This document shows positions 3,939 through 22,601 of a DNA stretch of 64,000 bases, piece by piece. The stretch is from Opitutaceae bacterium EW11 (lineage in GTDB: Bacteria > Verrucomicrobiota > Verrucomicrobiia > Opitutales > Opitutaceae), in NCBI GenBank assembly GCA_003054665.1, contig QAYY01000012.1, forward strand, positions 62,001 through 126,000, given 5' to 3'. A model generated the notes under the pieces. The model did not search any database and had not been told where the DNA came from. It was given only the letters and a program-made list of their open reading frames with translations. The translations under genes were made by a program, and so were the position numbers. Each line of letters opens with the position of its first letter. Within the stretch, counting starts at the first letter, position 1.

Positions 3939-3958
3939 GGGCGGAAGACAGTGGATTG

Positions 3959-4126
3959 AGATCAGAGGTCTGAAGTCAGACGTCGGAGGACAAAGCCGGA
4001 AGTCGGAGACCAGACGCGCGCTTCCATCCATCTCCCAACGCTGGATTCCGATTTCCGAACTCTTGAATCTGACTTCCGATCTCCGACATCCGACTTTCGT
4101 CCTCTGTCATCTGACTTCCGTCCTTT
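3959..4126. repeat. degenerate heptamer array, CCGACTT type, with inverted left arm
   Basis: From 4043 to 4126 the sequence reads as twelve contiguous heptamers close to GACTTCC (equivalently CCGACTT): for example gatttcc, gacttcc, gatctcc, gacatcc, gactttc. The array ends exactly at the ATG of the next gene (4127). On its left, 3959-4012 carries about seven units of the reverse complement (aagtcag, acgtcgg, aagtcgg), so the transcript could fold into a long imperfect hairpin. An array of the same architecture occurs at 18836-19033. This fills the whole gap between the kinase and the acylase gene. Confidence 0.8.
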
Positions 4127-16504: not shown

Positions 16505-18433
16505 ATGCGCACTTACGACTGCCCCAGCTGCGGCGCCCCCGTGAACTTCGTGTCCGGAACGACCGCGTTCGCCGTATGCCAGCACTGCCGCTCGATGGTG
16601 GTTCGCAACGACCTGAAGCTGGAAGCGATCGGCGAAATGGCCGAGCTGCCCCCCGACCTGAGTCCGCTCCAGATCGGCACCCGGGGGCGTTGGCAGGACC
16701 TCGGTTTCACCCTTCTCGGCCGCGTGCGGCTCGCCTGGGAGCAAGGCAGCTGGACGGAGTGGTATTCGGAGTTCGACGACGGCAGGCGCGGCTGGGTCGC
16801 CGAGACGCAGGGATTCTTCGAGTTGAGTCTGCTCCACTCGGGCGAAGGCGCCCCCACCTCGATGCCCACCGCCAAGGCGGGAAGCCGGCTCTCGTACGCC
16901 GGGAAGAGCTGGCGGGTGGTCGACCGGAAGGAAGTCGCCCTCGTCTCCGCCGAAGGCGAGCTGCCCTTCGTCGCCCGTCCGGGCGAAACCCACGTCGCAC
17001 TCGATCTCGCCGGTCCGGCCGGCGAATTCGGCTCGATCGAGAGGCACGAGGACGGAGTCAGCCTGTACGTCGGCGGCTCCGCATTTTTCTCCGAACTGCA
17101 CCTCGCGAATCTCAAGGCGGTGCCGGGCTGGTCGGAAAAGACGGCCGAACCGATCCGTCGCCGCACCACCGCGCTTTCCTGCCGGCATTGCGGCGCGCCC
17201 GTGGCTTTGCGCGCCGAGGGGCTCACGATGTCCGTGGTCTGCGGTTCCTGCGGCACGATTCTGGATACGTCGCTCCCCGAGGTGCAGATCGTCCAGCGCG
17301 CCAACGCCGCGCTGCAGGCGCTCAAGCCCGTCTTGCCGCTGGGCCTGCGGGGGACCTTCGGCGGGATCGTTTACGAGGTCATCGGCACGGTTGAGCGGGA
17401 GGACGAATACTCCAGCTGGCTCGAATACCTGCTTTTCAACCCGTGGCACGGTTTTCTCTGGCTCGTCACCTACCGGGGCCACTGGTCGCTCGTCTCGCGC
17501 CTGCTCGCGCCGCCGTTTGCGGGCAGCACCAGTGTCCGGCTCGGCGGCGAACGCTACGCCCTCTTCGCCGAGGGACAAACGAAGGTGCGGCGCGTGATCG
17601 GAGAGTTCTATTGGCAGGTCACGCGCGGCGAGGTCTCCGTCGTGAGCGACTTCATCGCGCCGCCGCGGATCGTTTCGAAGGAGACCTATCCGGGGCTCGA
17701 CGAGGAAACCTGGTCCGGAGGCGAGTACCGGACGCCCGCCGAGATCTCCGCCGCCTTCAACCTGCCGGCGCCGCTCCCCCCGGCCCAGGGCTCCTATCTG
17801 AACGAGCCCAATCCGTACGTCGCCCGCTGGCCCGCGGTGCGCAATCGCGCGCTCCTCGCCCTGGTCGCGCTCGCCGTCATCCAGCTCTTCTACGTCACCC
17901 GCTCCGCGAAACAGTCGGTATTCGAAGCCAACTACACCTACCAGGCCGGCGTCGGCGACGCGAACGACGTCACGACTCCGCCCTTCACGCTCGCGGCCGA
18001 CCACCGCCCGCTCGAGATCGAGGTCTACTCCAACATCAGCAACAGCTGGATGGATTTCGACTTCGAGCTGGTGAACACCGCCACCAGCGCGACGCAACCG
18101 GCAAGCGCGGGCGTCTCGTATTATTCCGGACAGGACTCCGACGGCTATTGGAGCGAGGGCAGCCGCTCCCGCTCGATCGACCTGGCTGCGATTCCCGCCG
18201 GACCGTACCTGCTCCGCATCGAACCCTCGGCCGATGCCGGGATCGTCCGCCAAGGCTATACGGTGAACGTGAGATCGGGCGGCGTTTTCTGGTCCAACTT
18301 CTTCCTCTGCCTCGCCGCCATCTGCCTCTACCCCGCGTGGATTCTCTGGCGGCGCCACGCGTTCGAACGCGACCGCTGGTCGGACAGCGACTACTCGCCG
18401 TATTCCAGCGCCGAAACCTCCAGCGACGACTGA
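16505..18433 (+). CDS. DUF4178 membrane protein with two zinc ribbons
   Basis: A 642-residue protein built from two similar halves. Each half starts with a zinc ribbon (C6-x2-C9 and C25-x2-C28; C226-x2-C229 and C246-x2-C249). A DUF4178-type beta domain follows each ribbon (IGTRGRWQDLGFTLLGRVRL with GSWTEWYSEFDDGRRGWVAE; LGLRGTFGGIVYEVIGTVER with YSSWLEYLLFNP). After these come a transmembrane helix (LLALVALAVIQLFYV), a beta-rich extracytoplasmic domain and a second helix near the C-terminus. DUF4178 proteins commonly occur with DUF350 and spermidine-synthase-like genes, as here. The biochemical role is not established; a scaffold at the membrane is my guess. Confidence 0.85.
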   Translation: MRTYDCPSCGAPVNFVSGTTAFAVCQHCRSMVVRNDLKLEAIGEMAELPPDLSPLQIGTRGRWQDLGFTLLGRVRLAWEQGSWTEWYSEFDDGRRGWVAETQGFFELSLLHSGEGAPTSMPTAKAGSRLSYAGKSWRVVDRKEVALVSAEGELPFVARPGETHVALDLAGPAGEFGSIERHEDGVSLYVGGSAFFSELHLANLKAVPGWSEKTAEPIRRRTTALSCRHCGAPVALRAEGLTMSVVCGSCGTILDTSLPEVQIVQRANAALQALKPVLPLGLRGTFGGIVYEVIGTVEREDEYSSWLEYLLFNPWHGFLWLVTYRGHWSLVSRLLAPPFAGSTSVRLGGERYALFAEGQTKVRRVIGEFYWQVTRGEVSVVSDFIAPPRIVSKETYPGLDEETWSGGEYRTPAEISAAFNLPAPLPPAQGSYLNEPNPYVARWPAVRNRALLALVALAVIQLFYVTRSAKQSVFEANYTYQAGVGDANDVTTPPFTLAADHRPLEIEVYSNISNSWMDFDFELVNTATSATQPASAGVSYYSGQDSDGYWSEGSRSRSIDLAAIPAGPYLLRIEPSADAGIVRQGYTVNVRSGGVFWSNFFLCLAAICLYPAWILWRRHAFERDRWSDSDYSPYSSAETSSDD

Positions 18434-18440
18434 TCGATCG

Positions 18441-18593
18441 ATGAACTTTCTTCTCCGCGCCCCCCTTTACGCCGCCATCGCGCTCGGTGCCTGCGTCTAC
18501 CTCGCCGCCGCCAATGCGCGCGGCTGGAGCCCCCTCACGCCTTTCACACCCAAACCGACCGTTCTGCACGGCGCCCCCGTGCGCCACAAATAG
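18441..18593 (+). CDS. 50-residue single-helix membrane protein in the DUF4178 cluster
   Basis: A short open frame of 50 residues starting eight bases after the DUF4178 stop and ending two bases before the DUF350 start. It encodes MNFLLRAPLYAAIALGACV, a likely transmembrane helix, followed by a short soluble Pro/Lys tail (WSPLTPFTPKPTVLHG). The tight spacing on both sides and the presence of a membrane helix, as in its neighbours, argue for a genuine gene. I do not recognise a family. It could be the small-protein partner of DUF350. Confidence 0.65.
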   Translation: MNFLLRAPLYAAIALGACVYLAAANARGWSPLTPFTPKPTVLHGAPVRHK

Positions 18594-18595
18594 CC

Positions 18596-18802
18596 ATGAA
18601 TTGGTACAACCTGCTCGCCTCAGCCGTCTACGCCATCGCCGGACTGGTGATCTTCTGTCTGGGCTTCATCGTCATCGACAAACTCACGCCGTACAACTTG
18701 TGGCAGGAGCTGGTGGAGAAAAAGAACACCGCCCTCGCCCTGGTCGTGGGTTTCGTCGCCCTCGGTCTCTCCATCATCGTCGCCGCGGCGATACATGGGT
18801 GA
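18596..18802 (+). CDS. DUF350 (YjfL-type) membrane protein
   Basis: A 68-residue protein with two hydrophobic helices: SAVYAIAGLVIFCLGFIV and ALALVVGFVALGLSIIVAAA. Between them lies the loop LTPYNLWQELVEKKNT, whose EKKN(T/A)A motif is typical of DUF350. E. coli YjfL has two such units; this is the single-unit form. In E. coli the yjfIJKLMC operon places DUF350 with a PspA-like protein and an ATP-grasp enzyme; here the partners are DUF4178, a spermidine-synthase-like enzyme and SpeD, a related theme of membrane plus polyamine. Function unknown. Confidence 0.87.
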   Translation: MNWYNLLASAVYAIAGLVIFCLGFIVIDKLTPYNLWQELVEKKNTALALVVGFVALGLSIIVAAAIHG

Positions 18803-18805
18803 ATG

Positions 18806-18826
18806 CCGCGGCCGCAGCGGCCGCGG
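18806..18826 (+). terminator. GC-rich palindrome after DUF350
   Basis: A perfect 21-nt palindrome (CCGCGGCCGC, A, GCGGCCGCGG) starts three bases after the DUF350 stop codon. It would form a very stable hairpin but has no U-tract, so it may attenuate, pause or protect the message rather than end it. Confidence 0.5.
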
Positions 18827-18835
18827 AGAAGGTGG

Positions 18836-19033
18836 CAGTTGGAAGTTGGAAATTGGTGTCCAGCAAACGCCGCAGTGCCACACACCGGACTACCGATGAT
18901 TCCGTTCGCTTTCCGACCTATTCTACGCTCCCGCGAGTGTCACCAACTACCAACTACCAACTACCAACTACCAACTACCAACTACCAACTACCAACTACC
19001 AATTTCCAAATTCCAAGTTCCAACTTCTACCCC
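18836..19033. repeat. heptamer array CCAACTA/CCAACTT with inverted left arm
   Basis: Eight perfect copies of CCAACTA fill 18943-18998, followed by ccaattt, ccaaatt, ccaagtt and ccaactt to 19026: twelve heptamers, 84 bp. To the left, 18836-18856 reads agttgga, agttgga, aattgg, the inverse of the variant units, so the two sides can pair. The array is 67 bp upstream of the spermidine-synthase-like gene and lies in the gap after DUF350. The unit differs by one base from the CCGACTT unit of the array at 4043-4126, which also has twelve units. Confidence 0.9.
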
Positions 19034-19093
19034 GGCCCGTTCCGTCCACGACCGTGATCCGTCCTGAAATCCCCTTCGGCTGCTCTCCCCGAA

Positions 19094-20605
19094 ATGTCTG
19101 ACCGCGGCACACGCCTCCTTCTCCTCGCTTCCGTCTTCGCGGTCGCCACGTGCGGGCTGATCTACGAATTGATCTGCGGCACGCTCGCGAGTTATCTGCT
19201 CGGCGACTCGGTCACGCAGTTTTCCACGGTGATCGGGGTGTATTTGTTCGCGATGGGCATCGGCTCGTACCTCTCGCGCTTCGTTCAGGGCAACGTGCTC
19301 CGGATGTTCATCCGCGTGGAATACCTCATCGGCGTCGTCGGAGGGAGCGCGGCCGCGATCCTCTTTCTCTGCTTCGCCCACGTGAGTTCGTTCCGCGTGC
19401 TGCTCTACGGGCTGATCGTCGTCGTGGGCACGATGGTGGGCCTCGAGATTCCGCTCATGCTGCGCATCCTCAAGGGGCGGCTGGAGTTCAAGGAGCTCGT
19501 CTCGAAGGTATTCACGTTCGACTACATCGGCGCGCTCGCCGCATCGCTCCTTTTCCCGCTGCTGCTCGTGCCGCACCTCGGGCTCGTGCGCTCGGGCTTC
19601 CTTTTCGGCATCGTCAACGCCGCCGTCGGCCTTTGCGCCGTCGAGGTCCTCCGGCGCGAGCTCGGCGGCACCGCCGGACTGCGCGCGGCCGGCTGGACGG
19701 CCATCATCCTTCTCGGCGCCGGTTTTGCGGCGTCGGATCGGATCATGACGTGGTCGGAAAGCGCGACCTACGTCGACGACGTCATCTACGCCCGCTCCTC
19801 GCCATACCAGCGCGTCGTCCTGACCCGCTCCACCAACGACCTTCGTCTCTACCTCAACGGCAATCTCCAGTTCAGCTCGCGCGACGAATACCGCTACCAC
19901 GAGGCTCTCGTGCACGCCGGCCTCGCCCGCCTGCCGCAGGCCCGCCGGGTGCTCATCCTCGGCGGCGGCGACGGCCTCGCCGCCCGCGAGGTGCTGCGGT
20001 ATCCAGGGATCGAACACATCACGCTGGTCGATCTCGATCCCTCCGTCACCGGCCTGTTTTCCCGGCAGGAGAATCTCGTGGCGCTCAACGGAGGCGCGCT
20101 CTCCTCGCCCAAGCTGCAGATCGTCAATGCCGACGCCTTCGCCTGGCTCCGCGGCCGGACCGATCAGTTCGACTTCGTGGTCGTCGATTTCCCCGATCCG
20201 TCGAATTTCAGCGTCGGGAAACTCTACACGACGGCCTTCTTCGACCTCGCCCGCGGCGTGCTCGCCCCGGGAGGCGCGATGGTGGTGCAGTGCACGTCGC
20301 CGTTCGTGGCGCGGAAGTCGTTCTGGTGCGTCGACGCGACCCTGCACGCAGCGAAATTCGTGACAGAACCCTATCACGTGTACGTCCCGTCGTTCGGCGA
20401 ATGGGGCTTCATCCTCGCCTCGCGCGAGCCCCTTGGCGGCGTCTGGCAGCTGCCGGAAGGCCTGCGCTACCTCACCCCGCAAACGCTCGCGACGCTTTTC
20501 GCTTTCCCGCCCGACATGGGCCCGGTGCCGACGGAGGTCAACCGGCTGAACAATCAGGCCCTGGTCCGCTACTTCGAGGAAGAGTGGGCGCATTACGTCC
20601 ACTGA
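19094..20605 (+). CDS. membrane-bound spermidine-synthase-like aminopropyltransferase
   Basis: A 503-residue protein with an N-terminal membrane part (about residues 8-215; several helices such as LLLLASVFAVATCGLIYELI and YGLIVVVGTMVGLEIPLML) and a C-terminal spermidine-synthase-type domain. The synthase domain has the decarboxylated-SAM-binding motif VLILGGGDGLAAREVLRY, LVDLDPSVTGLF and the DFPDPSNFSVGKLYTTAFF segment that holds the catalytic-type Asp. It would transfer an aminopropyl group from decarboxylated SAM, which the speD product in the same operon can supply. The acceptor is unknown. Family members with this membrane part are common beside DUF350/DUF4178. The ATG at 19094 opens the first helix. 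Confidence 0.9.
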   Translation: MSDRGTRLLLLASVFAVATCGLIYELICGTLASYLLGDSVTQFSTVIGVYLFAMGIGSYLSRFVQGNVLRMFIRVEYLIGVVGGSAAAILFLCFAHVSSFRVLLYGLIVVVGTMVGLEIPLMLRILKGRLEFKELVSKVFTFDYIGALAASLLFPLLLVPHLGLVRSGFLFGIVNAAVGLCAVEVLRRELGGTAGLRAAGWTAIILLGAGFAASDRIMTWSESATYVDDVIYARSSPYQRVVLTRSTNDLRLYLNGNLQFSSRDEYRYHEALVHAGLARLPQARRVLILGGGDGLAAREVLRYPGIEHITLVDLDPSVTGLFSRQENLVALNGGALSSPKLQIVNADAFAWLRGRTDQFDFVVVDFPDPSNFSVGKLYTTAFFDLARGVLAPGGAMVVQCTSPFVARKSFWCVDATLHAAKFVTEPYHVYVPSFGEWGFILASREPLGGVWQLPEGLRYLTPQTLATLFAFPPDMGPVPTEVNRLNNQALVRYFEEEWAHYVH

Positions 20606-20619
20606 CCCGGCAGCCTCGC

Positions 20620-22248
20620 ATGATCACGCGACGTGAGTTTCTGGTCGGTTCAGCTTGCGCCGCGGGTCTGGCGGCGCTGTCCGGTTGCCGCGACCGCGAC
20701 GGCGGGCTCGCGTCGCGCATTCCCGGTGAAATCCTCGGCGCAAACAGCGCCGCCGGCCACCGCCTGCGCACCGGCGCACTGCCTCCGGTTTCGGAGACGA
20801 TCGAGGCCGAATTCGTCGTGCTCGGCGGAGGCGTCGCGGGGCTCTCCGCGGCGCGGCAGCTGCGCCGCAGCGGGGTAAACGACCTGCTGCTGCTCGAACT
20901 CGAGGACGAGATCGGCGGCAACGCCCGCTCCGGCAGCAATGCCGTCTCGGCGTATCCGTGGGGCGCACACTACCTGCCGCTGCCCAGCGAGGAATCGGTC
21001 GAGGTCGCCGCCTGGCTGGAAGAGATCGGCCTCATTACCGGACGCGCGGCTGACGGCGCTCCGATCTTCGACGAGTACGCCCTCTGCGCGGATCCGATGG
21101 AGCGTCTTTTCCATCACGGCGCCTGGCAGGAGGGCATCGTTCCCCGGCTCGACGTGCCCCACGCCGAGCGGGCTCAGATCGAAGGCTTTCTCGCCCGGAT
21201 GGACCGATGGAGAACGACGCGCGGCTCGGACGGTCGCCGGGCGTTCGCCATCCCGGTGGACCGCAGCTCGCGCGACACCGCGTTTCTGGACCTGGATCGG
21301 GTCACGATGGCGGACTACCTGAAGCGCGAGGGATGGACGTCGGAGGCGCTGCGCTGGTACGTCGACTACTGCTGCCGCGACGACTACGGCGCTTCCGCCG
21401 ACGCGGTCTCCGCCTGGGCCGGTATCCACTATTTCGCTTCGCGGAACGCCCGCGCCGCCAATGCCCCGTCCTCCGCGGTGCTCACCTGGCCGGAAGGCAA
21501 CGGCTGGCTCGCCCGCCAGCTGCAGCAAGCCGTGGGTACGGACATCCGCCCGAAGAGTCTCGTCTGGAGCATCGATTGTCCGCCATCGGGCGGAGTGGCT
21601 GTCGATTTCCTCGATCTCGCGAGCGAACGCAGCATCCGTGTGAAGGCCCGCGGGGCCGTCTGCGCGCTGCCCCGCTTCATCGCCCAGCGTTTGATTCACG
21701 GCGGCCCCGGGGCGGTCGCGGTGTTTCCCGACCTGGTCTATTCGCCCTGGATGGTCGCCAACCTGACGCTGCGCCAGCTTCCCGGCTCCACGTCGGCCCT
21801 CGCCTGGGACAACGTGCCCCGCGAAAGCCGTTCGCTGGGCTACGTCGTGGCCACACACCAATCGCTCGCCAGCCATCCGCGCAAAACGGTCATCACCTAC
21901 TACCAGCCGCTGGACGACGTGCCGCCGCAGCAGGCTCGGGAAACCGCACTGGCCCGGACGCACGAGAGCTGGGCCGGGCAGATCCTCGCCGATCTCCAGC
22001 GCATGCATCCGGACCTTCCGGCACAGACCGCGCGGCTCGACGTCTGGCTCTGGGGGCACGCGATGATCCGCCCCGTGCCCGGCTTCATCTCCGGTCCGAC
22101 GCGCCGGCGCATGCAGGCGCCGCACGGCCCCCTCGCGTTCGCCCATTCGGACATGAGCGGAATCTCGATCTTCGAGGAGGCGTTCACCCGGGGTATCGAC
22201 GCCGCCAACACGCTTCTCGCCTCCCGCAAGACTCTCTCGCCAGCATGA
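20620..22248 (+). CDS. FAD-dependent amine-oxidase-like lipoprotein
   Basis: A 542-residue exported flavoprotein. The N-terminus has a twin-arginine motif (TRREFLVG) plus a lipobox LSGC, so it is probably folded with FAD in the cytoplasm and anchored outside. The dinucleotide-binding fold is VVLGGGVAGLSAARQL near residues 67-82, followed by an acidic ribose contact (LLELEDEIGGNA). The C-terminal part (GHAMIRPVPGFI and the DMSGISIFEEAFTRG end) fits FAD-binding amine-oxidase/protoporphyrinogen-oxidase-like enzymes. It starts 14 bp after the synthase gene and overlaps speD by 4 bp, so polyamines or their derivatives are plausible substrates; that is inference. Confidence 0.85.
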   Translation: MITRREFLVGSACAAGLAALSGCRDRDGGLASRIPGEILGANSAAGHRLRTGALPPVSETIEAEFVVLGGGVAGLSAARQLRRSGVNDLLLLELEDEIGGNARSGSNAVSAYPWGAHYLPLPSEESVEVAAWLEEIGLITGRAADGAPIFDEYALCADPMERLFHHGAWQEGIVPRLDVPHAERAQIEGFLARMDRWRTTRGSDGRRAFAIPVDRSSRDTAFLDLDRVTMADYLKREGWTSEALRWYVDYCCRDDYGASADAVSAWAGIHYFASRNARAANAPSSAVLTWPEGNGWLARQLQQAVGTDIRPKSLVWSIDCPPSGGVAVDFLDLASERSIRVKARGAVCALPRFIAQRLIHGGPGAVAVFPDLVYSPWMVANLTLRQLPGSTSALAWDNVPRESRSLGYVVATHQSLASHPRKTVITYYQPLDDVPPQQARETALARTHESWAGQILADLQRMHPDLPAQTARLDVWLWGHAMIRPVPGFISGPTRRRMQAPHGPLAFAHSDMSGISIFEEAFTRGIDAANTLLASRKTLSPA

Positions 22249-22601
22249 ATCTCCCGCTCGGACACCACTCGCTCTTCGACTACCACGGCTGCGCGCGGGA
22301 GATGCTGACCGACACGGAAGCGATTCGCTCCACGCTCCTCGCCGCGGTGAAGGAAGCCGGCGGCACCATCGTGACCGATACGTTCCACACCTTCAGTCCG
22401 TACGGCGTGAGCGGTGTCGTCGTGATCGCCGAGTCGCACGTCACGATCCACACCTGGCCGGAACACGGCTACGCCGCGGTGGATGTTTTTTCGTGCGGTG
22501 TGTCGCTCGACCAGAACCGGATTCGCGACCGGATCGCGGGCGCCCTGCAGGCCCAGCGCGTGGAGGAACGCCGCTTCGCCCGAGGCATGACACCGGGCTG
22601 A
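22245..22601 (+). CDS. speD: S-adenosylmethionine decarboxylase proenzyme
   Basis: A 118-residue prokaryotic (class 1B) AdoMet decarboxylase. It is made as a proenzyme that cleaves itself to create a pyruvoyl group; the cleavage site is Glu63-Ser64 within IAESHVTIHTWPE. Other family features are GHHSLFDYHGC at the N-terminus and GYAAVDVFSCG with the catalytic cysteine (Cys84). Its product, decarboxylated SAM, is the aminopropyl donor for the synthase-like protein upstream. The ATG overlaps the stop of the FAD gene (ATGA), indicating translational coupling in one operon. Confidence 0.95.
   Translation: MNLPLGHHSLFDYHGCAREMLTDTEAIRSTLLAAVKEAGGTIVTDTFHTFSPYGVSGVVVIAESHVTIHTWPEHGYAAVDVFSCGVSLDQNRIRDRIAGALQAQRVEERRFARGMTPG

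Follow-up and report, generated by a model that had tools for sequence, protein, structure and literature searches.

What is the heptamer array that lies between two genes of one operon at 18943-19026 of the window (the whole 64,000-nt stretch of Opitutaceae bacterium EW11 DNA analysed in this work), and is it a repeat that stands on its own or a part of a larger element? Intergenic heptamer arrays have been reported from many bacteria, and to our knowledge there is no agreed explanation for them. A sequence-only reading of the locus had described eight perfect CCAACTA units and four variants (twelve heptamers, 84 bp), inverse units to the left of the array and a plus-strand membrane-protein gene after it, and all of this was borne out. 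The perfect units start at 18943, 18950 and so on to 18992, and the four variants follow them; the inverse units occupy 18838-18856; and in the gene at 19094-20605 (+) the first half looks membrane-spanning by eye, while the second half carries a Spermine_synth domain. Tandem Repeats Finder reported period 7, 12.0 copies and a score of 126 for the array, which is the sole period-7 peak in the 64-kb window at the threshold used. Tandem perfect 7-nt units, as in a heptameric SSR, are thus present, and a rough composition-based estimate indicated that a run of this length is not expected by chance. The features of the locus are as follows.

18596-18802, plus strand: DUF350 (PF03994) gene, upstream in the operon
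18806-18826, no strand assigned: outer GC palindrome at the left edge, 21 bp with a 10-bp stem
18838-18856, minus strand: left arm, three inverse units (GTTGGAA, GTTGGAA, ATTGG)
18857-18942, no strand assigned: loop of 86 bp without an IVP ORF
18943-18998, plus strand: right arm, loop side, with eight perfect CCAACTA units that the predicted minimum-energy fold leaves unpaired
18999-19026, plus strand: outer part of the right arm (in order CCAATTT, CCAAATT, CCAAGTT, CCAACTT), pairing with the left arm
19094-20605, plus strand: spermidine-synthase-like gene (PF01564), downstream in the operon

The element as a whole measures about 220 bp and has an inverted-repeat (hairpin) architecture, with terminal inverted repeats that form a stem in the predicted fold. 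The left GC palindrome begins 3 bp past the DUF350 stop codon; at the right edge no matching palindrome of at least 6 bp was found. The predicted RNA fold of the element reached -72.5 kcal/mol vs. -56.7 ± 4.2 kcal/mol for shuffled sequences (z = -3.74), and 0 of 200 shuffles folded as well. We concluded that the array does not stand alone but belongs to an inverted-repeat hairpin element, of which it forms the right arm in expanded form. The sequence-only reading contained neither the GC palindrome at 18806-18826 nor the pairing between the left arm and the outer part of the right arm. A fold better than that of all 200 shuffles also speaks for a host regulatory hairpin, i.e., a 3'-end or intercistronic structure selected for mRNA stability or termination and with no mobile past, and this alternative is weighed below against the operon junction, the match between arms and the neighbouring genes.

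The element sits between the DUF350 and spermidine-synthase-like genes and is not inside an rRNA gene. We collected 80 synthase loci in relatives from many phyla, among which DUF350 lies directly upstream in 64; one of these (gap 2177 bp) was left out of the gap statistics, leaving 63. The distance from the DUF350 stop to the synthase start is 291 bp here vs. a median of 27 bp at the 63 other loci, 45 of which have a gap of 60 bp or less; the tblastn match, whose first residue is as late as residue 17, marked the end of each gap, and the gaps are therefore slightly overestimated. The junction therefore holds extra sequence here and is short in most other bacteria. The element is not conserved at the DUF350-speE junction, which argues against a regulatory hairpin. 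Eighteen junctions are at least 60 bp long, and in seven of them the inverted pair scored above all 40 of its own shuffles, barely so in L031, L063 and L026, and clearly in L087, L021, L012 and L073 (scores of at least 39 vs. shuffle maxima of 21-23); the window junction scored 47 vs. a shuffle maximum of 20. Judged by eye, the arms are of a 7-mer type in L012 and L073 and of a 9-mer type in L021, and L087 has no clear word. Arms of other words are thus present at the DUF350-speE junction in L012, L021 and L073, and elements with different words seem to have entered this one operon junction in unrelated bacteria.

The two genes belong to a DUF4178-DUF350-spermidine synthase-FAD oxidoreductase-AdoMet decarboxylase cluster (16505-22601 of the window). 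An ortholog of the downstream synthase was sought in 200 Opitutaceae genomes (E 1e-80) and was found in 1/200, which is this genome, and in none of the other 199. The missing close match in these relatives suggests that the cluster from DUF4178 to AdoMet decarboxylase may have been acquired.

The word family of the window element occurs at about 50 sites in the genome, counted as match starts, one per run, clustered within 600 bp. Exact CCAACTA x3 gave 26 overlapping matches, a degenerate pattern 63 and a half-element pattern 76, and the reversed-pattern controls gave 0 matches in the same genome. We also performed a word-blind scan of 304 kb, consisting of the window and twelve 20-kb stretches taken at round coordinates. 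All 6 lag-7 segments had an inverted partner within 500 bp, whereas lags 5, 6, 8, 9, 10, 11, 12 and 13 together gave 29 segments, of which 1 had such a partner (Fisher 4e-6). The six segments make up three elements, namely the window element, an element in L156 and the 4043 element, a sibling within the window:

3957-4118, no strand assigned: sibling element with GTCAGAG-like and CCGACTT-like words (left arm 3957-3992, right arm 4067-4118)

The element in L156 (339-466) is an inverted pair of a third heptamer word, GAAGAAG / ATTCTTC. The sequence-only reading had compared the array at 18943 with one at 4043, which is the right arm of the sibling element; the left arm was unmentioned there. It had given both arrays the same unit number, and this did not hold: at 4043 Tandem Repeats Finder found 69-78% matches and reported a period of 21, so that array is far less regular than the window array and the unit number is not common to both. 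The proposed difference of one base between the two units is true of the variant CCAACTT, but the CCGACTT-like words are two bases from CCAACTA. The notion of a family with a common architecture stands, given the sites across the genome, but the unit of the family is the inverted arm pair around a loop and not the array.

These data bear directly on the reading of the array as an ordinary heptamer SSR, an intergenic slippage array as in Xanthomonas and Nostoc that possibly tunes how the gene after it is expressed. Many bacteria have an over-representation of heptameric SSRs, which in Xanthomonas lie close to an ORF end (PMC4692102), and the eight perfect units are evidence of slippage in the window array. 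However, the inverted pairing of every lag-7 segment in the 304 kb weakens this reading, and so do the palindromes of at least 6 bp on 40 of the 56 outer ends and the homologous loops at other loci. For example, the L101 and L102 loops are 94% identical over 69 bp, and the first 22 bases of the window loop are part of the L104 loop in reversed orientation (22/22). Slippage accounts for the length of the array, not for its architecture, and we consider an ordinary SSR quite unlikely. Perfect runs of at least 5 units are found in 6 of the 28 own-genome elements with both arms found, in one arm each (window, L092, L094, L100, L102 and L110); by eye, four of these runs lie next to the loop and the other two take up the whole arm. 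The earlier suggestion that identical units reflect expansion is thus supported, and arms at other loci range from 2 to 17 units.

Within the outer 42 bp of the same 28 elements, a perfect stem of at least 7 bp was detected at 18/28 left and 17/28 right ends, compared with 3.0% of 1152 control windows. Palindromes of this kind raise the question of REP/BIME (REPIN) sequences, in which case inverted short palindromes would be moved by a RAYT tyrosine transposase and the heptamers would be the spacer. REP sequences are likewise short palindromes, often opposed nearby and mostly downstream of genes (PMC3733652). The outer GC palindromes here are inverted and often near a stop codon (by eye), a TAG foot is present at 10 of the 40 palindromic ends, and there are two Y1_Tnp genes in the genome. 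However, the GTAG foot is present at 3 of the 40 ends only, the palindromes vary among loci and share no conserved stem, and no family words lie within 600 bp of either Y1_Tnp gene, although one of the two (L155) shows 4 weak lag-7 windows. With no conserved foot or stem and no RAYT association seen, a REP/RAYT origin was mostly not borne out, and we regard it as very improbable.

The sequence-only reading had proposed that the words are homogenised locally. Among the 28 own-genome elements, complementarity between the two arms of one element does not exceed that between arms of different elements (p = 0.90), and the same is true of the outer GC segments (p = 0.97); with the expanded arrays removed, there was still no excess match between own-partner arms (p = 0.72). 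Homogenisation or arm-to-arm correction within elements was thus not seen. Nor do these values give any hint that selection acts on pairing within individual elements, and the lack of excess own-partner complementarity again counts against a regulatory hairpin. The neighbouring genes were examined for 26 elements (2 of the 28 were left out because one side had no called gene): 15 are tandem, 8 convergent and 3 divergent, compared with 68 tandem, 11 convergent and 24 divergent among 103 control gaps of at least 100 bp. The convergent excess (8/26 vs. 11/103, p = 0.025) and the divergent deficit (3/26 vs. 24/103, p = 0.28) would be in keeping with a structure at gene ends. By eye, however, no U-tract follows the outer hairpins, and an apparent normal terminator precedes the L152 element. 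A host regulatory hairpin with no mobile past is therefore unlikely in our judgement.

In the wider family, exact CCAACTA x3 is present in 4 of 252 Opitutaceae genomes. The degenerate heptamer pattern was matched in 38 of 100 genomes, and because its reversed control was matched in 21 of 100 the pattern is unspecific in this set. Arrays of other words are present in relatives. In two congeneric species, G002 and G050, several CTGACTC-type arrays are clustered within ~8 kb (L126 and L127), and one such pair in G002 encloses an IVP gene.

Most of what is known of IVP/S23 proteins concerns their puzzling presence as passengers of rRNA. The EW11 genome has three PF05635 (IVP) loci, and all three lie between inverted k-mer arms. 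The ORF in the long-loop element L114/L168 encodes PF05635, the 23S rRNA intervening sequence protein (TIGR02436, four helix bundle), and in L168 the ORF is surrounded by words of the window-element family and by GC palindromes. Of the three loci, the one at C45:169480 reads GC palindrome-GAGAAGTTGGAAG...CTTCCAACTTCTG-GC palindrome, which is the anatomy and the word family of the window element. L169 (1400-1870) holds an IVP ORF with 8-mer arms, and by eye we take its neighbours to be the ATP synthase operon genes atpA and atpG. In L170 the IVP ORF is decayed and the arm words are like those of the 4043 element; the gene downstream is presumably thrC (by eye). Whereas L168, L169 and, in decayed form, L170 have an S23p/IVP ORF in the loop, the window element has none. 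A profile of six such IVP proteins matched PDB 2gsc (XCC0516, E 6e-30) and 2rld (E 5e-20). Avd of diversity-generating retroelements is a four-helix-bundle protein related to IVP, and one Opitutaceae IVP protein matched the NCBIfam Avd model with E 2.9e-5 and 24 bits, compared with a cut-off of 80. The window word family has about 50 sites vs. one IVP locus with that family, and a search of loops longer than 60 bp for IVP relics, with 59 IVP proteins as queries, gave a best match of 16 residues (E 0.003), which is not convincing.

To extend the comparison beyond one genome, we analysed the flanks of IVP genes in Opitutaceae, where PF05635 is present in 81 of 100 genomes. The sample comprised 33 loci, 3 from this genome and 30 among the matches listed. 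Flank complementarity had a median of 35 vs. 16 for cross-paired flanks and 16 for flanks 500-650 bp away, and 25 of the 33 loci scored above every far-flank control; the 99th percentile of the cross-pairs (41) was surpassed by 13/33. In a preliminary flank test one cross-pair reached 392 and so surpassed all observed scores; its presumed source is a pair of homologous neighbouring loci within a single genus. The arm words vary (AGTTGAG, GGAGTCA, GTAGCGA, AAGCGGT and others). Period-7 flanks were found at 26 of the 33 loci vs. 3 of 179 ordinary genes, a control set that a custom gene caller drew from this genome alone. Counted by windows at the same threshold, period 7 was detected in 38/66 near flanks vs. 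5/128 far flanks.

Outside Opitutaceae, an IVP match was obtained in 21 of 38 genomes, which were reached through 38 of the 80 synthase loci. Among the matches listed, 30 outside loci were analysed, of which 27 are outside Verrucomicrobiota (the phyla include Bacteroidetes, Acidobacteria, Gemmatimonadetes and FCPU426) and 3 are from Verrucomicrobiota outside Opitutaceae; 3 are below the Pfam cut-off. Period-7 flanks were present at 14 of them, and 16 scored above every far control, so the pattern is found again in other phyla, where the words differ. At the threshold used, 7/33 Opitutaceae loci and 16/30 loci elsewhere are without period-7 flanks. We concluded that word family, anatomy and position tie the window element to IVP elements.

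The closest known system is described for Coxiella burnetii (PMC4990558). There the 23S rRNA IVS has inverted terminal repeats, a long stem around an S23p/IVP ORF and heptamers by the ORF (two or three GACAGAT units, depending on the strain, just upstream of the S23p ORF), and it is cut by RNase III in vitro. The strain-dependent heptamer number is a parallel to the suggestion in the sequence-only reading that copy number of the window array may vary between strains. In contrast, the elements reported here lie outside rRNA, between protein genes; their arms are mainly heptamers, with GC palindromes outside them, and the window copy is without an ORF. A second likeness is to intergenic heptamer repeats such as GGGAATC in Xanthomonas and GGGGATT in Nostoc, for which slippage and G-quadruplex ideas have been put forward (PMC4692102), and TAACTGA in Beggiatoaceae (PMC4679880). 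They too consist of 7-nt units, mostly intergenic and in many copies, with a lineage-specific word. As described there they are direct arrays with G-quadruplex or translational roles, whereas the heptamers here are paired in inversion; the text of PMC4679880 mentions one inverted repeat and contains neither 'four helix' nor 'S23'. In our open-access literature searches we came across no paper linking IVP genes with heptamer arrays that lie outside rRNA.

The window array is thus probably the right arm, lengthened by slippage, of an IVS/IVP-type hairpin element that has no ORF. In such elements two inverted arms of 7-nt words enclose a loop. GC palindromes usually lie at the outer edges in this genome, at the window copy on the left only, and in siblings the loop is occupied by the four-helix-bundle protein known from 23S rRNA IVSs. 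The elements were presumably mobile in the past, with IVP-bearing copies as the active form. The window copy would be co-transcribed with its operon and then fold, and RNase III would cut the stem, as in rRNA IVSs, to leave two separate messages. Replication slippage presumably gave rise to the eight identical units, which lie next to the loop in one arm, where pairing would not hold the length constant. Several results stand against this reading: the loops of ORF-less elements gave no convincing IVP relic, the sites of the word family far outnumber the single IVP locus that has it, arms fit their own partner no better than others, some IVP loci are without period-7 flanks, and the window copy has no clear GC palindrome on its right.

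A second gene family found between inverted arms is GxxExxY (PF13366), which is present in 85 of 100 Opitutaceae genomes; as cargo in the EW11 genome it gave 0 matches. At 30 GxxExxY loci among the matches listed (L201-L230), the inverted flanks had a median of 39 vs. 18 for cross-paired flanks, and 14/30 loci scored above every far control. Their arm words are ~8-9 nt by eye. The lag test was weak for these loci, with lag 7 or 8 at 5/30 and lag-9 windows at 7/59 near vs. 5/114 far. We take the neighbours of the GxxExxY genes in L211, L214 and L220 to be gatA and gatB (by eye). The loops of L096, L103, L140 and L105 in our heptamer set contain a nested inverted pair of 9-mer-like words (CTTCGCG / CGCGAAG) that resembles the arms of GxxExxY elements, and no GxxExxY gene was found in this genome.

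On a wider and more tentative view, all of these may be minimal mobile hairpins that occur across phyla and insert at gene junctions within operons. Their defining feature would be a pair of arms in inversion, built of 7- to 9-nt words that are specific to the lineage, and not a conserved sequence. Their cargo would be either IVP (mostly with 7-mer arms) or the PD-(D/E)XK-like GxxExxY protein (with 8- to 9-mer arms), and many heptamer arrays would be ORF-less members. The words might be recognised or generated by the elements' own protein machinery, and the RNA might be cut out as in IVSs.

The finding links a common and unexplained type of bacterial repeat to the poorly understood IVP element by way of a sibling insert. 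If heptamer arrays are arms of IVP-type hairpin elements, the question of the arrays and the question of the IVP proteins merge into one, and each becomes testable. Cut messages would then be predicted from elements at operon junctions, ORF-less copies would depend on an IVP-bearing copy, and the length of an array would be a record of slippage in one arm.
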